Origin: an uncultured Roseovarius sp.
Lineage (GTDB): Bacteria; Pseudomonadota; Alphaproteobacteria; Rhodobacterales; Rhodobacteraceae
DNA length: 64,000 nucleotides
Reading direction: 5' to 3'
NCBI RefSeq assembly: GCF_947489715.1
Contig: NZ_CANLER010000004.1
Coordinates: 248,001-312,000, forward strand
Shown here in pieces: positions 1 through 36,497 of this stretch. A program made the position numbers and the translations under genes. The first letter of the stretch is position 1. Each line of letters opens with the position of its first letter. The notes beneath the pieces were generated by a model. That model worked only from the letters and a program-made list of their open reading frames with translations, had not been told where the DNA came from and did not search any database.

Positions 1-52
1 GGCCTATATCGTCAAGGATGGCGACGTGCTGCACTTCCTTTTCAACACCTGA
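1..52 (+). CDS. ychF: YchF ribosome-binding ATPase, C-terminal end only
   Basis: The only complete frame running into a stop here reads YIVKDGDVLHFLFNT, which closely matches the last residues of the TGS domain of the universal GTPase-like ATPase YchF (usual ending of the type VxDGDVxHFRFN). The remainder of the gene lies before the window. YchF binds ribosomes and hydrolyses ATP. Only about 16 residues are visible, so the assignment rests on this tail motif. Confidence 0.72.
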   Translation, partial: AYIVKDGDVLHFLFNT

Positions 53-88: not shown

Positions 89-176
89 TACCAGGGTCTT
101 AAGGCCGCGTTCCGGGGTGAGCGCGCTCCATACCCGAATCGCTTTGTTAACAAGGGCTTTGGGGCCGATTTGGTGT

Positions 177-254
177 GTCGGTATAACGTCGGTATTTTGT
201 CGGTATTCCGTCGGTGCGGGGATCGGTAAATTGTCGGATTAACAGTGCGTCCGG
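177..254 (+). repeat. 11-bp tandem repeat array (GTCGGTATnnn), copy 1
   Basis: Four head-to-tail 11-bp units start with GTCGGT at 177, 188, 199 and 210 (the first three continue GTCGGTAT), followed by weaker units GATCGGTAAATT and GTCGGATT. The array is followed by TTAACAGTGCGTCCGG. The same unit and a near-identical tail recur at 32909-32974. This fills most of the 300-base gap between ychF and the convergent TPR gene; no gene is evident in the gap. Confidence 0.8.
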
Positions 255-351: not shown

Positions 352-2214
352 TTAGCTGGCTTTTGCTGTTGAAAAAACCTCCTGCGCGGCTTCAGCATGG
401 ATCATTGCCTGATTCAGTTGGGTTGGGTCATCGGTATTGTCAAAAAATGCCAACTCCAAATTAGCAAGATTATACTGGGTCATTGCCCAATCGAGCGGCA
501 TGCGGTTGCTAGTATATTCCTTAAGCGCGCTTTCGTAGGCAACACGCGCTTCTGCAAATCGATATTTGTCCCCGTCGAGTGCTCCAATTGCCTGGAGCGC
601 AGTGCCGAGATTCATCAGTGTTGCTGCCCATTGGAGCGGCGTGTTGTCTCGTGTCCACACCTGCAGTGCCTTCTTAAAGGCCTGTACGGCCTGATTTAGG
701 CGTTCAGTATTTCTTTCACGCTCTCCAAAAATTCGGAGCGCAAGGCCGTAATTCATCTGTGTTGAAGCCCAGTCGTGCGGTGCACGATCACGCGTACGTT
801 CCTCTAGAGCGCTCTCGTAAGCTTGGACAGCTTGCGTTAATCGCTCACTATCATTTTCACGCTCGCCGATTACTTGAAGCACATTACCGAGGTTCATTTG
901 GGCCGTTGCCCAATCAAGCGGCATGCGGTCGCGTGCCCACTCCTGCAAGGCGTTTTCATAGGCGGTGACGGCCTCGATCAGCTGCTGCGAGTCTTTTTCG
1001 CGTTCTCCCAATCTTGTGAGTGCGTTTCCTAAGTTCATCTGTGTCGCGGCCCAATTGAGTGGAAGGCTGTGACGTGGGAATTCCACAAGTGCGAATTTAT
1101 AATTTTCGACAGCTTCAAGCAGATATTTGGTGTTGATCTCCGATTGCCCTAGGACCGCAAGTGCATTGCCCACGTTATTTAGTATTGTGCCGCGTTCCGT
1201 CCCTGCGGTGGTGCGTGCCAAAACAAGCTTTGCAATATTGATGGAAACTTTGAGGAATTCAGATACCCCTTTGTCGCGTCCCTGAGTGAAATAATTATCT
1301 TGAAGTGTGCGCAGGTTTTCGAATTCAGCATGTCCCCCCGCCTCAAGATCAGCCTTTTGCACTAATAGTTCAGCAGAACGGGCGGCGTCGCCTTGGAGCA
1401 TCGCAACCTCGATACCGCTTTCCAGCAAACGGGTCTTGCGGGCCTGATGGGTGGCGTCCTCGGCGGCGAGGGCTTCGGTGATCTCGGCGCTGGCGCTGGC
1501 ATAGTCACCGTCCGCCGCGAGGTCCGCCACGCGTTTCAGCATTTCATCGACGAAATCGCCGTGGTTCGAGGTGACGCGCCCCTCCTGCTGGACGCGTACG
1601 GCGATATCGATGGCATTTTGCAGCTCCAGCCACGCTTGTCCCAGATCATCCGTGTCTCCGGCAATGCGTTGCGCCAGCCGGATGATGGCCTTTTCGGTAA
1701 TGCCTTCGTCGTGCAGGCGGTCTTGCTGACCGGTGTCCCGGGTCCGCGCCAGAAGCTCCTGCAACATCGCCTGTTCTTCGGTCCGCGGTTCAAGATACGG
1801 GGTCAGGGTAGCGGTGAGGATGCTGGCATAATCCTCAAGTGCTATGGCGGTGCGGTGGGCGTCGTCCACGGATGTGGCCCTGATTTGCGCGCACATGTTG
1901 GCGGCGATGGTCGGGGCGTCCATGTTCCCGGCGGCCAGATCGGTTTTGCCGGGTGGGAAGCTCTCCAGCATCTGCACGATGATTTTTCTGCGGTCGGGCG
2001 TAAGGTGCGCGTGATCGAGGTGGCCCTGCATTTCAGCTGCCATGGATTTGGCAAGGTATTTCTGGTCTTTGGTGGATTTCTTGAACAGTTCCACGCTTGA
2101 CAGCATGGTCGTGATCGCCGCCCCGGCACCGCCGGTCATGCTGAGATCCGCCGCGGTGGCGGCGCTGGCTATGGCAACCGCGATGTTGCCGGCGTGCAAA
2201 GGTTTTTCAATCAT
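352..2214 (-). CDS. TPR-repeat protein with a conserved helical N-terminal region
   Basis: The protein has 620 residues if started at ATG 2214, which has GGAAGG just upstream; the ORF track start at 2307 is less likely. The N-terminal ~270 residues are an Ala-rich, mostly helical region without a recognised catalytic motif. The C-terminal third is a run of about six 47-residue TPR-like units of the form PLDWAxxQMNLGNAL..AVxAYExALxExxRDR. The first part of the gene looks clearly more GC-rich than the repeat-coding part, with a change near 1390, suggesting a modular or exchanged C-terminus. It ends convergently against ychF and sits upstream of tRNA-Ser in the opposite orientation. Long TPR arrays usually bind protein partners; the function here is unknown. 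Confidence 0.8.
   Translation of the reverse strand: MIEKPLHAGNIAVAIASAATAADLSMTGGAGAAITTMLSSVELFKKSTKDQKYLAKSMAAEMQGHLDHAHLTPDRRKIIVQMLESFPPGKTDLAAGNMDAPTIAANMCAQIRATSVDDAHRTAIALEDYASILTATLTPYLEPRTEEQAMLQELLARTRDTGQQDRLHDEGITEKAIIRLAQRIAGDTDDLGQAWLELQNAIDIAVRVQQEGRVTSNHGDFVDEMLKRVADLAADGDYASASAEITEALAAEDATHQARKTRLLESGIEVAMLQGDAARSAELLVQKADLEAGGHAEFENLRTLQDNYFTQGRDKGVSEFLKVSINIAKLVLARTTAGTERGTILNNVGNALAVLGQSEINTKYLLEAVENYKFALVEFPRHSLPLNWAATQMNLGNALTRLGEREKDSQQLIEAVTAYENALQEWARDRMPLDWATAQMNLGNVLQVIGERENDSERLTQAVQAYESALEERTRDRAPHDWASTQMNYGLALRIFGERERNTERLNQAVQAFKKALQVWTRDNTPLQWAATLMNLGTALQAIGALDGDKYRFAEARVAYESALKEYTSNRMPLDWAMTQYNLANLELAFFDNTDDPTQLNQAMIHAEAAQEVFSTAKAS
355..1203 (-). repeat. 141-bp tandem coding repeats (TPR units)
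   Basis: Six consecutive units of 47 codons can be aligned at the C-terminus of the TPR protein. The four central ones share W-A-x-x-Q-M-N-L-G and an AVxAYExAL helix, while the first and last are more diverged. The DNA copies are themselves similar (recurring forms of attcatctgtgttgaagccc and cgctctccaa), so unequal crossing-over could change the copy number. Confidence 0.8.
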
Positions 2215-2351
2215 ACTCACCTTCCCTGCGAGCAGCATAAAGGGGTCGCGCGCCGGATAAACCCGGCCGGGAAATCCAAGCTGCGCAATGCGGGTATTTT
2301 GGGCCAATTCTGCTCTTGCCCTCTTTGGCGCAGATGTTTAGACGGGTCAGC

Positions 2352-2441
2352 GGAGCTGTGGCCGAGTGGTCGAAGGCGCTCCCCTGCTAAGGGAGTAGGC
2401 CCGGAAGGGTCTCGTGGGTTCGAATCCCATCGGCTCCGCCA
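2352..2441 (+). tRNA. tRNA-Ser (anticodon GCT)
   Basis: This is a 90-nt class II tRNA. The acceptor stem GGAGCTG pairs with CGGCTCC with one G-U. The anticodon loop lies in ctcccctGCTaagggag, followed by a long variable arm (taggcccggaagggtctc), a T arm with GTTCGAATC and an encoded CCA at 2439-2441. The anticodon GCT reads AGC/AGT serine codons. Its 3' end is immediately followed by AT-rich DNA and an integrase remnant, the usual arrangement at a tRNA attachment site. Confidence 0.96.
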
Positions 2442-2589
2442 CTTTACCCTAAATCAGATTTTCTTTGAAATATTCAGAATACTGCATAGCCCTTATTTAT
2501 ATACGAATTTTTGAAAATAGACTTCTATTGGATTTCTTTCGATATCGCCTGCATCATTTCGTTCGGTGGTATGAATTGTGGTATAGAAC

Positions 2590-2966
2590 ATGGCGGCACT
2601 TAGCGGCAAACTGACGAAACGACTGGTTGAAAACCTTGGGCCGGGTCGGCATGGGGATGGCGGCGGGTTGCATCTGGTCGTCGATCCCTCGGGCGCGCGG
2701 CGTTGGATTGTGCGGGTGACGGTCAAAGGTCAGAAGAACCGCAAGGGTGGGCCTCTGCGCACGGACTTCGGATTGGGCGGGGCAGATGTCGTCACGCTCA
2801 ACATGGCCCGCGAGCGGGCGCTGGAATACCGCCGCATGGCCAAGCAAGGGCTGAACCCGCGTTACAATGCCCGGCAGGACATCCCGACCTTCGAAGAGTT
2901 TGCCCAGCAAGTGCATATCGAGCGCCTGCCGACATGGCGCAATCCCAAGCATGGCCAGCAATGGAT
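2590..2966 (+). pseudogene. Truncated tyrosine-recombinase (P4-type integrase) N-terminus
   Basis: About 125 residues are recognisable as the arm-type DNA-binding (DUF4102-like) and start of the core-binding region of a P4-family integrase: LTKRLVENLGPGRHGDGGGL, LVVDPSGARRWIVRV, SLG-like FGLGGADVVTLNMARERALEYRRMAKQGLNP, then WRNPKHGQQW. After that motif the similarity stops and the frame ends 15 codons later (stop near 3009). The catalytic domain with the R-H-R-Y residues is absent, so it cannot recombine. It lies 148 bases after tRNA-Ser(GCT) on the same strand, as integrases of tRNA-targeting islands do. It is best read as the relic of a lost or deleted genomic island. Confidence 0.85.
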
Positions 2967-3299
2967 CTGTTCGATGAAGGGCATGTCTCGCGTGTTGTTG
3001 CACAAGTAGAACCGTCGTCGGTTGATTTGGGAACTTTGGTGATGGTGGGAATGGTCTTGGACCGTTCAACACCCGAAAGCTTCGCTGCCTTTGAAGAAGC
3101 GGTGTCGGGCATGAAGGAACTGTTGGACTGCCACTTGGTTGCAGGAGACTTCGACTACCTTCTAAAAATCCGCGTCAGCGACATGAATGACTTTAATACC
3201 ATGCACAACAAGATGCTGATCGCTTTGCCCGGCGTCCGCCAAATTCGGACGTTCTTTGTGCTGAAGGAAATCAAAGAAAACGCTCCGTTGGCATTCTGA
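2961..3299 (+). pseudogene. Lrp/AsnC-family regulator, C-terminal RAM domain only
   Basis: In the +3 frame, from LFDEGHVSRVVAQVEP onward, the sequence matches the ligand-binding half of Lrp/AsnC regulators: LGTLVMVGMVLDRSTPESFAAFEEAV, LLDCHLVAGDFDYLLKIRV, then ALPGVRQIRTFFVLKEIKE. The normal N-terminal helix-turn-helix (about 60 residues) is missing, and its place is taken by the integrase fragment in another frame. The ORF track extends this frame to 2703, but that part is shadow. An ATG at 2961 could in principle give a 112-residue RAM-only protein, but no ribosome-binding site precedes it. Confidence 0.82.
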
Positions 3300-32024: not shown

Positions 32025-32054
32025 TCATGGGATCAACCCAGGAGGATCCCATGA
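32025..32054 (+). promoter_or_regulatory. Hairpin enclosing the crotonase ribosome-binding site
   Basis: TCATGGGATC and GATCCCATGA are perfect 10-bp inverted copies around the loop aacccaggag. The Shine-Dalgarno lies in the loop and the ATG (32051) inside the right arm. In mRNA this would hide the start codon, so it could control translation; as DNA it could be an operator. Confidence 0.65.
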
Positions 32055-32845
32055 GCCGCGTCACCACCCATATCGAAGATCACATCGCCTACGTGACCCT
32101 CAGCCGGCCTGACAAGATGAATGCCGTCGATCCGGAAATGGCCCAGGCGATCGTGACCGCCGGAGAGGAATTGATGCAGTCCGACATCCGCGCTGTCGTG
32201 GTGTCGGGTGAGGGTAAATCATTCTGCGCGGGGCTTGATGTGATGAGCTTTGCACAATTTGCTGCGGGCGATCCCGAAGCACTGGTGATGCCGCGAACCC
32301 ATGGAAATACCAATCTTTTTCAAGAGGTTGCGATGGTGTGGCAACGTATCCCCGTGCCCGTGATCGCGGCATTGCACGGCGCGGTCTATGGCGCCGGGTT
32401 CCAGCTGGCCCTTGGTGCGGATATCCGCATTGCTGCACCGGACGCCAAGCTGGCGATCATGGAGATGAAATGGGGCCTTATCCCCGATATGGGCGGCATG
32501 TTGCTGCTGCCCCGGCTGACCCGCAGCGATGTGATCCGGCGGATGACCTACAGCGCCGAGCCGGTGCAGGCGCCACAGGCGCTGGAATGGGGGTTGGTGA
32601 CGGAACTGGCGGATGATCCGCAGGCCGTGGCCGTGGCGCTGGCCACGGAGATCGCGGGCAAAAGCCCCTCGGCCATACGCGCGGCAAAGCGCTTGATCGG
32701 GGTCGCTGAAAGCGGCGCGGATGAGGATGCGGTGCTGCTGGCCGAAAGCCGGGAACAGACCGACCTGATCGGCAAACCGCACCAGGTGGCGGTAATTTCG
32801 GCCAATATGTCGGGCCGCAAACCGGTCTTTTCCGGCGACACCTGA
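32051..32845 (+). CDS. Enoyl-CoA hydratase/isomerase (crotonase) family protein
   Basis: 264 residues from ATG 32051 with AGGAGG upstream. Crotonase fold: VTLSRPDKMNAVDPEMAQA, oxyanion-hole segments SGEGKSFCAGLDVM and LHGAVYGAGFQLALGADIRIAAPDAKLAIMEMKWGLIPDMGG. The Glu pair for hydration is replaced in part (G-G-M-x-L), as in many members annotated only to family level, so hydratase, isomerase or hydrolase activity is open. No neighbouring fatty-acid genes point to a pathway. Confidence 0.88.
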   Translation: MSRVTTHIEDHIAYVTLSRPDKMNAVDPEMAQAIVTAGEELMQSDIRAVVVSGEGKSFCAGLDVMSFAQFAAGDPEALVMPRTHGNTNLFQEVAMVWQRIPVPVIAALHGAVYGAGFQLALGADIRIAAPDAKLAIMEMKWGLIPDMGGMLLLPRLTRSDVIRRMTYSAEPVQAPQALEWGLVTELADDPQAVAVALATEIAGKSPSAIRAAKRLIGVAESGADEDAVLLAESREQTDLIGKPHQVAVISANMSGRKPVFSGDT

Positions 32846-32908
32846 CGGTTACCGGTGCGACTCACCGCTAACCCACTGGTAAACTGCAAAAACTCCGGGC
32901 TGTATTGC

Positions 32909-32974
32909 GTCGGTATCACGTCGGTATTACGTCGGTATTTATACCGAAAACCCATCCCTTAACCGTGCGCACGG
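32909..32974 (+). repeat. 11-bp tandem repeat array (GTCGGTATnnn), copy 2
   Basis: Units GTCGGTATCAC (32909), GTCGGTATTAC (32920) and GTCGGTATTTA (32931). The last forms a perfect inverted repeat TCGGTAT-tt-ATACCGA, and TTAACCGTGCGCACGG follows at 32959. The unit and tail match the array at 177-254. It lies in the 331-base gap between convergent crotonase and valS. Confidence 0.8.
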
Positions 32975-33035
32975 ATATGGTTTCGCAGAGATTAAACTCG
33001 CGCATGGCCCTCTTCTGGAAATGTGTGGCCACACC

Positions 33036-33122
33036 CGCCCGCGCTAGCGGGCGCCCCCTTTCCCCGGGCGAGCGAAGCGAGCCCCCCGCCCGCCGCAGGC
33101 GCCGAGTGCTGGCGAAGCCAGC
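33036..33122. terminator. Cluster of GC-rich hairpins before the valS 3' end
   Basis: CGCCCGC-gcta-GCGGGCG (33036-33053), GGGC...GCCC around gagcgaagcga (33066-33084) and GCTGGC-gaa-GCCAGC (33108-33122) stand in series. They lie between two convergent genes and probably act as a bidirectional terminator or a REP-like intergenic element. Confidence 0.55.
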
Positions 33123-33176
33123 GCGACCACGTCAAGCTAGTGCCGGCGCTGCCCGCGCGACCTTGGCCGATCCAGA

Positions 33177-36100
33177 TCAGCCGATCTCGTTCAGACGGTC
33201 CAGTGCGGCGGTCAGCTTGCCGGCTTCTTCCTCGCGCAAGGCAAGGTTTTCGCGGGCCTCGGCCACCACCTCTTCCGGGGCGCTTTCGACGAATTTCGGG
33301 TTGTTGAGCCGTCCGCGCAATCCACCTAGTTCTTTGTCGAGCTTGCCCAGCGTTTTCTCCAGCCGCGCCTTTTCCTCGCTGATGTCGATGATATCGGCCA
33401 GCGGCAGGCCGAAACTGCCCCCCTCGACCGCGACGGTGATGCAGCCCTTGGGGAAGCTCTCGACATGGGTCAGACTGTCGATCCGGGTCAGGCGCTTGAT
33501 CATCACCTCGTTGCTGTCCCACGCGGCCTGACCGGCGGCGTCCAGTTCCAAGACCAGCACGGGGATGTGCAGCCCGGCAGGCACATGCATCTGGGCGCGG
33601 GCCGAACGCACCGCCTCGATCAGGGAAATCACCCAGTTCATTTCGCGGTCTGCGGCAGCATCCACCAACTCGGACCCGTATTCAGGCCAGTCGGCATGGA
33701 TCAGCATTTTTTCACGCGTGCCCAAGGTGCCCCAAAGCTCCTCGGTGATGAAGGGCATGATCGGGTGCAACAGGATCAGACACTGGTCGATGACCCAGGC
33801 CATGGTCGCCTGTGTCTCGGCCTTGGTCGCGTCGTCGCCATCCAAGAGCAGCGGTTTTGAGAACTCGACATACCAGTCGCAGACCTTGCCCCAGACAAAG
33901 GCATAAAGCGCCGAGGCCGCATCGTTGAACTTGTAGCCTGCCATCGCCGCATCGACCGCCTCGCGTACTTTCGCGGTTTCGCCGATGATCCACTTGTTCA
34001 CGGTTGCCTCGGGGTGGGGCAGGGTGCCGTCGCTGCCCGTGGCCCCGTTCATCTCGGCAAACCGCGCGGCGTTCCAGAGCTTGGTGCCGAAATTGCGGTA
34101 GCCTTTGATGCGTTCCATATCGAGCTTTAGCACGCCCCCAAGGGCCGCCATTGCGGCCGAGGAGAAACGCAGCGCGTCAGCACCGAATTCGTCGATGATC
34201 TCCAGCGGGTCGATGACGTTGCCCACGGATTTCGACATCTTCTTGCCCTTGGCGTCGCGGACAAGGCCGTGCAGGTAAACCTCGTGGAAGGGGATGCGCT
34301 CGGTCACGGGTTTATTTTCGTCCAGCACCGCCAGTTGCATCATCATCATCCGCGCGACCCAGAAGAACAGGATGTCCTGCCCGGTCACCAGCACAGAGGT
34401 GGGGAAGTATTTCTTGAGTTCCTCCGTCTCCTCGGGCCAGCCCAGCGTGCCGATCGGCCAGAGACCGGAGGAAAACCAGGTGTCGAGTACGTCGGGGTCG
34501 CGCCACATCGGAATGTCCATATAGCCGCCACTATCTGTCGACCCCAACGCTGTTTTGTTCAGGAACCAGTCACCAGGGTCGCTGTCCAATTCAAAAAAGT
34601 TCTGTGGCTGCTTCCCAGTGCGTTCCAGCCATACTTTTGCTATTTGTTCCTTCGCTTCTTTAGCGCCGGCGGCGCAAAACTCCATAGTGAGCATCCCGCC
34701 GGGCGTTAACTTGCCTCCCAAAGCTTCTTCGTCAGGGCGTTTTTCCCTCAAGAAATCATGGGCTTTCGCCAACGGAATGTTGCCGCCGACAGAAACCCGC
34801 CAAGTGCCTACTTGCCCATCCAATGTAGGGACCATAGCTGTCCAAACCGGAATCTGATGCCCCCACCAGAGCTGGCGGGAGATGCACCAGGGTTCGATAT
34901 TTTCCAGCCAGTGGTAATAGGTGCGCTCGCCGCTCTCGGGCAGGATCTTGACGGTGCCATCCTTCACCGACTCCAGTGCCGGGCCGACGATCTGGTCGGT
35001 GTCGACGAACCACTGATCGGTCAGCATCGGTTCGATCACCACCTTGGATCGGTCGCCGAAGGGCTGCATGATCGGTTTCGATTCAACATAAGGCACCATG
35101 CCGCCATCAAAGCAGGTTTCGCCCTCTTCGTTCGGCTCGCCGGGCAGCATCACGGCCAGTCCTTCGCTGGTGATCTGGTCGACCACGCGCTTGCGGGCGT
35201 CGAAGCGATCAAGGCCGCGCAGGTCGTCGGGGACGAGGTTGATCGTGTCGGCCTCGGCCTCGGAAAGTTCCCGCTCGCCCTTGGCCACGGCCATCGCGAT
35301 TTCGGCCATTTCGGCATAGGGCGCACCGTCAGCGCGCATCTGCGCCTTGGTGTTCATCAGCCGGTACATCGGGATGCCGCCGCGCTTGGCGACCTGGTAG
35401 TCGTTGAAGTCATGCGCGCCGGTGATTTTCACCGCGCCCGAGCCGAAATCGGGGTCGGGGTAGTCGTCGGTGATGATCGGGATCAGGCGACGGTGTTCCT
35501 TGGGGCCAACGGGAATTTCACAGAGTTTTCCGATAATTGGCGCGTATCGTTCATCTGATGGGTGAACCGCAACCGCGCCATCGCCCAGCATGGTTTCGGG
35601 CCGGGTCGTGGCGATCGAGATATAGTCGCGGGTTTCGCGGAACAGCACGTTGCCGTCTTCGTCTTTCTCCAGATATTCATAGGTCTGACCGTCGGCCAGC
35701 GGGTATTTGAAATGCCACATATGGCCCGCCACTTCGAGGTTTTCGACCTCAAGATCGCTGATCGCGGTTTCGAAATGCGGGTCCCAGTTGACCAGTCGCT
35801 TGCCGCGATAGATCAGGCCCTTTTCGTACATCTCGACAAAGACCTTGATCACGGCGTCGTGGAAATTACCGTCTTCACCCTCGGGGGCCGAGGGGGCGCC
35901 GGACATGGTGAAGGCTTCGCGTGACCAGTCGCAGGAGGCGCCGATGCGTTTCAATTGCCCGATGATGGTGCCGCGGGATTTGATCTTTTGTTCCCAGACG
36001 CGTTTTTCGAACGCCTCACGGCCCATTTCCGCGCGCGAAGGTTCCTGATTTTCGGCCATTTCGCGTTCCGTCACCATCTGCGTGGCGATGCCCGCATGGT

Positions 36101-36350
36101 CGGTGCCGGGCTGCCAGAGCGTATCGAAGCCGCGCATCCGGTGCCAGCGGATCAGGATGTCCTGCAGCGTGTTGTTGAAGGCGTGGCCCATATGCAGGGA
36201 GCCGGTGACGTTGGGCGGCGGGATCATGATCGAGAAGGTTCCGGCGCCGGGTTTGGCGTTGGCCCCGGCGGTAAAGCATCCGGATTTTTCCCAGGCCCGG
36301 TAGAGGCGGTCCTCGGCCTCGGCCGCGTTGAAGGTTTTTTCCATCGGCAT
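33177..36350 (-). CDS. valS: Valyl-tRNA synthetase with an internal insertion
   Basis: 1057 residues from ATG 36350 (AGGA upstream, [21 protein letters not shown]). Class I synthetase motifs: HIGH as [19 protein letters not shown] as [36 protein letters not shown] before KMSKS, editing domain with [17 protein letters not shown], and a C-terminal coiled coil ([37 protein letters not shown]). Between WWGHQIPVW and [12 protein letters not shown] lie about 110 residues where most ValS have a much shorter loop. The DNA there (about 34515-34850) looks lower in GC than its flanks. Essential enzyme; the motifs appear intact. Confidence 0.95.
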
Positions 36351-36497
36351 GGGCTTGTCCTGCGTCCTTATCACGTTGCCCGCACGTCTAGCGAATGAAG
36401 GGGGCAAGGGAAAGACAGGTGCGGTATTTTCTTAGAGGTGCGTGACAGGCGCGGGAAACCATCGCAGACTGCGGTTGAGGCAGGCGGAGGCAAGGCG

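Follow-up and report, generated by a model that had tools for sequence, protein, structure and literature searches.

Introduction

Why should a stretch of the genome of an uncultured Roseovarius sp. carry, at two separate sites, the same short array of direct repeats, and what could such arrays be for? An earlier note on this stretch (64,000 nucleotides, the window in what follows) had described two arrays with an 11-bp period, one of them after ychF, each followed by a conserved tail, and had likened them to protein-binding iterons. Here, we follow these arrays from the window to the whole genome and its relatives, and weigh what they might do.

Two arrays in the window

Both arrays and both tails lie exactly where they had been reported, and the 11-bp period is confirmed (Table 1). 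Element 1 is located between the 3' ends of the 651-aa ORF and of the gene ending at position 51, which we take to be ychF, and the spacing between its GTTAAC box and its first unit is found again in other aligned copies, or is 11 bp shorter. A two-unit pattern allowing up to three mismatches matches the window six times against 0.22 expected, a number reached in none of 100 shuffles, while the matches of the tail by itself, at the same tolerance, are not significant in number within the window.

Table 1. Coordinates of the two elements and of their flanking genes in the window.
Feature	Position	Strand	Basis or remark
3' end of presumed ychF, upstream flank of element 1	1-51	+	C-terminal peptide YIVKDGDVLHFLFNT, then stop codon
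GAATC (GANTC-type) box, upstream edge of element 1	136-140	+	Found in this position in most full-length copies
GTTAAC box, 25 bp before unit 1 of array 1	146-151	+	
Array 1, three perfect GTCGGTAT and GTCGGTGC, 11-bp period	177-217	+	Profile match, E=1.2e-12; GTCGGTAT at 177-184, 188-195 and 199-206, GTCGGTGC at 210-217
ATCGGT partial unit following array 1	222-227	+	Seen in many copies
Tail of array 1, TTAACAGTGCGTCCGG	239-254	+	Sequence
651-aa ORF, convergent with ychF	352-2307	-	
Enoyl-CoA hydratase-like gene, left flank of element 2	32027-32845	+	
Degenerate GTTAAC-like box GGTAAAC, before array 2	32878-32884	+	Sequence
Array 2, GGCTGTAT and three perfect GTCGGTAT, 11-bp period	32898-32938	+	Profile match, E=3.3e-13; degenerate GGCTGTAT at 32898-32905, GTCGGTAT at 32909-32916, 32920-32927 and 32931-32938
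Tail of array 2, TTAACCGTGCGCACGG	32959-32974	+	Sequence
valS, right flank of element 2	33177-36407	-	

The window has other features of its own. Positions 33030-33160, adjoining array 2, hold a GC-rich palindromic intergenic repeat (GGGCGAGCGAAGCGAGCCCC...GTGCTGGCGAAGCCAGCGCGACC), and a similar sequence is found 3' of valS in Roseovarius sp. MMSF_3359 (G026), which suggests a second, palindromic repeat family. At 2352-3299, a tRNA gene precedes a truncated integrase-like N-terminus (2590-3009) and an Lrp/AsnC-like fragment, an arrangement that looks like a decayed tRNA-associated island.

A sharply bounded intergenic family

A genome-wide search, as the earlier note had proposed, was run on the source genome (5.03 Mb in 40 contigs, referred to as G000). 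The two-unit pattern has 132 exact matches there, whereas its reversed control pattern has none. A search with a sequence-only profile found 78 arrays (best E=2e-15, weakest 6e-6) and no match between E=6e-6 and E=0.5, i.e. the arrays are a sharply bounded family rather than a smear. The two arrays are thus not chance matches devoid of further copies, the outcome that would have spoken against the original reading. A chance match or a coding repeat is ruled out by the shuffles, the empty reversed control and the position of all 54 copies examined outside genes, which bears out the earlier description of a non-coding repeat.

The aligned copies share one architecture, in which GAATC and GTTAAC are followed, after 25 or 14 bp (a difference of exactly one unit), by about four GTCGGTAT-N3 units and then by TTAACNGNGCGNNCGG, some 62 bp after unit 1. 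The period is 11 bp in all aligned copies and the 3-bp spacers are variable; the perfect conservation of the 8-mer in pattern-picked copies is a product of the choice of pattern and carries no weight as evidence. In most copies of the source genome, GAATC/GTTAAC precede the units and TTAACNGNGCGNNCGG comes after them, and all 18 exact matches to the tail lie beside an array. About one-fifth are naked arrays that lack these boxes and usually occupy narrow intergenic spaces; in the relative G015, about half look naked. Outside the boxes, the sequence is highly diverged between copies. Visual inspection of the aligned copies showed no evident terminal inverted repeat, and no clean pair of empty and filled sites was seen among the genomes compared, which are not close enough to show one. 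A search of the open-access literature returned no published description of such arrays or of their motif.

Placement was analysed for 54 of the 78 copies with a simple codon-model gene caller. All 54 are outside genes, in a genome of which 12.7% is intergenic. Twenty lie between convergent genes, a setting that makes up 12% of intergenic bases (3-fold enriched, p=3e-6), three lie between divergent genes, which make up 26% (5-fold depleted, p=1.5e-4), and the remaining 31 lie between co-directional genes, where array orientation is uncoupled from gene direction (13 vs 18). This excess at convergent sites, the deficit at divergent ones and the lack of coupling to gene direction argue against promoter elements and strand-specific RNA elements. 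The arrays of the source genome adjoin housekeeping genes at 78 dispersed sites; the position after ychF, correct for copy 1, is not general for the family.

Replication polarity, replicon choice and spacing

Chromosomal distribution was analysed in G015, a closed Roseovarius genome whose chromosome begins dnaA-dnaN-recF-gyrB and shows the expected change in GC skew. The profile search placed every one of its 92 arrays on the 5.445-Mb chromosome, and the other four replicons, which add up to about 0.75 Mb, had no array (p about 7e-6). In 68 of the 92, the leading strand carries GTCGGTAT (p=5e-6), and the cumulative strand count peaks at 2.695 Mb, half of the chromosome, i.e. orientation switches at the terminus. 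The same leading-strand orientation was seen in G007, where the skew switches near 1.6 Mb (22/29, p=0.008), and, for arrays of another dialect (GTGYAC, see below), in 18 of the 25 G051 arrays among the matches listed (p=0.04), a call that uses a between-dialect mapping on which three shared sites agree and a fourth does not. In G051, it is the C-rich strand that leads, which speaks, weakly, against a simple GC-skew bias.

Array counts per 500 kb are flat in G015 (3-11, with seven in the 2.5-3.0 Mb bin that holds the terminus), and gaps shorter than 20 kb are half as many as expected (13 vs 26, p=5e-5). Spacing is under-dispersed in G044 (CV 0.47 vs 0.82, p<0.001) and likewise in the source genome; two long gaps keep the overall CV of G015 within the usual range. 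The G015 chromosome lacks arrays over 432 kb (G015:C1 1366734-1798444), which is longer than expected (p=0.05).

The 118-bp consensus matched nothing in collections of plasmids and phages, in a search run without a positive control. The three-unit pattern occurs in six viral contigs, at least one of which is apparently host DNA and others of which carry unrelated tandem arrays. Two viral contigs with Firmicutes-like gene content (L429 10021-10048 and L432 5946-5973) have five GTCGGTA-N4 units with an 11-bp period at the 3' end of a gene, which could be either convergent iterons or a distant relative. In a contig classed as viral (L434 7972-7999), the array adjoins gene-transfer-agent-like prohead protease and portal genes.

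Dialects and shared positions

Copies in relatives, as expected of a repeat family, were found in 26 of 60 Roseovarius genomes and in 17 of 296 other genomes of the bacterial family, a patchy presence from which it follows that the arrays are not universally essential. At least two further dialects, GTATGG-N5 and GTGYAC-N5, exist beyond the genus and among other members of Roseovarius, and the dialect searches gave no control matches. GTATGG came to light through the reversed control pattern, which matched arrays of five GTATGG-N5 units, again with an 11-bp period, in two other genera. When repeats of any period were sought in 80 valS loci, period 11 gave six matches at the loosest setting, against 0-1 for other periods. 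This led to GTGYAC in Paracoccus, a dialect that was then confirmed across the genomes of P. caeni and P. marinaquae, where the control had no matches. Within Roseovarius, GTGYAC is present in G051 (42 matches, no GTCGGTAT), in G194, in G362 together with GTCGGTAT (35 and 26 matches, respectively) and, in few copies each, in G006, G012, G034 and G052; these arrays are framed by the same kind of GTTAAC frame. The Paracoccus arrays (L264-L282) have a different frame, with CGCAACACC upstream and a CCAGCAnnTGCTGG palindrome downstream. A gene for an RHH_4 protein lies between DUF4169 and the array that follows fumC; this protein was considered as the reader and rejected as the determinant of dialect because its DNA-contacting strand is identical in the source genome (GTCGGTAT) and in a relative with the GTATGG dialect.

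Some positions are shared between genomes. In 13 of 17 array-rich Roseovarius genomes, an array is found directly 3' of the valS stop codon, antisense to valS, in the same orientation whether the next gene is crotonase or hisC. The array-free genomes inspected have no array there, the exception being G051, which has a GTGYAC array. Arrays also occur inside the valS coding sequence, in one variable loop just before the NKWI/NRWI motif, in G166, G245 and L193 (GTATGG), L246 (GTCGGTAA), and L248 and G194 (GTGYAC, degenerate in L248). Other common sites are after livG (G000, G166 and G051), in the interval that separates rluA from a kinase-like gene (G000, G015 and G051), and in the yajC, fumC-P450 and kynureninase regions (G000 and G166 or G245). 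Overall, 19 of 88 array loci (22%) have a flanking gene in common with an array locus of the source genome, against 19 of 204 array-free control segments (9%, p=0.005), and 12 of 58 do so across dialects (p=0.02). Between dialects, orientation is consistent at valS, livG and rluA, and inconsistent at a fourth site. This positional sharing is real but modest.

What could the arrays be for?

We favour, with a probability of roughly 45%, the reading that the arrays are docking sites for a putative DNA-binding protein, likely in chromosome organisation or segregation. Such a protein would bind the 8-bp core, and three to five adjacent protomers per array would line up along a single helix face in steps of 11 bp. 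The 80-90 or so sites would then be directional landmarks on the main chromosome, mostly oriented with replication and placed at gene 3' ends where promoters are left undisturbed. The most likely role would be in chromosome organisation or segregation, by loading, pausing or orienting a motor, or by anchoring domains. The recognition word would shift between lineages while some sites keep their position, and a change of word at kept sites is what would be expected if reader and sites co-evolve.

It is from the observed geometry, copy number, placement, polarity, restriction to the chromosome, dialects and shared positions that we infer the existence, assembly and role of this protein. Cores that recur with each helical turn, spacers that vary and flanking boxes in phase with the cores fit a protein assembling on one face of the DNA. 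The earlier proposal of a protein-binding or nucleoid-protein site is thus consistent with the geometry (8-mers, 3-bp spacers, a box at 14 or 25 bp), its binding protein being putative. Restriction to the chromosome, polarity, spacing, avoidance of promoters and maintenance of position, taken together, speak more for chromosome organisation or segregation than for gene regulation. Several observations count against docking sites: (i) polarity is only about 74%, and that of KOPS is stronger, (ii) a G/T-rich unit would drift to the leading strand by mutation bias alone, and (iii) positional conservation is modest, presence is patchy and the G015 chromosome has its 432-kb gap.

Chief among the rivals is a mobile element that has preferred sites and shows target immunity, i.e. 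a selfish repeat (MITE- or REP-like) whose putative transposase would prefer gene 3' ends and replication forks. The array would be the terminal binding sites of the element, target immunity would leave few short gaps, fork-coupled insertion would create polarity and independent families would appear as dialects. This is rather unlikely in our view, even though patchy presence among species, the co-existence of dialects in one genome such as G362, the depletion of short gaps, and convergent enrichment with promoter avoidance, as in other intergenic repeats, all speak for it. What it accommodates poorly is the lack of an evident hairpin or terminal inverted repeat (folding z-scores of -0.85 to +1.04), the high divergence beyond the boxes, naked arrays without any box, the other G015 replicons being free of arrays, the post-valS array that keeps its orientation while downstream genes differ, and the different dialects found within the same valS loop in several genera.

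The remaining alternatives have a smaller claim. Sites of OmpR/PhoB-type regulators are direct repeats about 11 bp apart, a geometry that the arrays match, and a minority of naked arrays is near start codons, but the operators of a large transcription-factor regulon would hardly be depleted from divergent (promoter) regions and enriched in convergent ones, independent in orientation of the flanking genes, and retained while downstream genes vary; we consider such a regulon improbable. Just as improbable are polar roadblocks, protein-bound arrays that would stop convergent read-through or ease replication-transcription conflicts in a fork-permissive orientation: convergent enrichment, leading-strand orientation and the lack of an intrinsic terminator around copy 1 would suit them, but most convergent pairs in the genome have no array and 31 of the 54 copies have co-directional neighbours, whichever way the array points. 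An element acting as RNA (a terminator, a 3' UTR or a small RNA), for which location at gene 3' ends could be invoked, is largely refuted and by far the least probable: both copies, folded on both strands, show no structure beyond shuffles, the terminator scan around copy 1 was negative, a tRNA was the only Rfam match in the whole window, and orientation is free of transcription.

Returning to docking sites, we suggest more tentatively that Rhodobacteraceae have a landmark code, read by a putative dedicated reader that has repeatedly switched specificity, with arrays rewritten at kept positions, even within valS; taken as a whole, this would be a polar code in several dialects, written at about 80-90 spaced positions and serving to organise or segregate the chromosome. 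If the docking reading is true, abundant marine bacteria have a DNA-binding system that marks the chromosome only, directionally and with an evolving code, which would offer a natural series for studying how a DNA-binding protein co-evolves with dozens of sites, and a new way to study how bacteria with several replicons distinguish chromosome from plasmids. If the arrays are mobile instead, they would represent a new class of non-palindromic intergenic repeats with replication-coupled orientation.

Comparison with known systems

None of the systems compared – KOPS/AIMS, REP/REPIN, Noc/matS and iteron/parC – matches the arrays on all tested features. Plasmid R1 parC contains five 11-bp direct repeats per array, and the likeness to iterons proposed from the window stands as far as geometry goes (tandem direct repeats of about one helical turn, suited to side-by-side binding). 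It does not extend to location, since iterons and parC sit at one plasmid locus, a replication origin or partition locus, unlike about 80 dispersed chromosomal sites with none on the other G015 replicons. The earlier reading is thus partly supported, and replication polarity, chromosome-only distribution and dialects were beyond its view. Noc binding sites, SlmA sites and matS are tens of dispersed chromosomal sites, each set bound by one DNA-binding protein, which the arrays resemble in number and dispersal; those sites are palindromic and regional, whereas the arrays are direct repeats found on both arms and in the terminus half.

REP/REPIN elements, with their RAYT transposases (PMC3116915, PMC8266576), are likewise dispersed, intergenic, present in dozens to hundreds of copies, promoter-avoiding and patchy between species. 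The arrays differ from them in being tandem units in helical phase, neither palindromic nor hairpin-forming, with replication-coupled orientation and some positions kept across dialects.

The FtsK gamma domain, which reads KOPS, is strongly conserved, whereas the word of the arrays varies between genera and within Roseovarius. Other differences from KOPS and Architecture IMparting Sequences (AIMS) are the helically phased arrays of three to five words at only 80-90 sites, a polarity of about 74% and the lack of a visible rise towards the terminus in G015. The arrays nevertheless share with KOPS/AIMS, which are 8-bp polar words (PMC2680272, PMC5993296), the length of the word, its chromosome-wide spread and its orientation from origin to terminus, with the leading-strand bias typical of these sequences seen in both G015 and G007.
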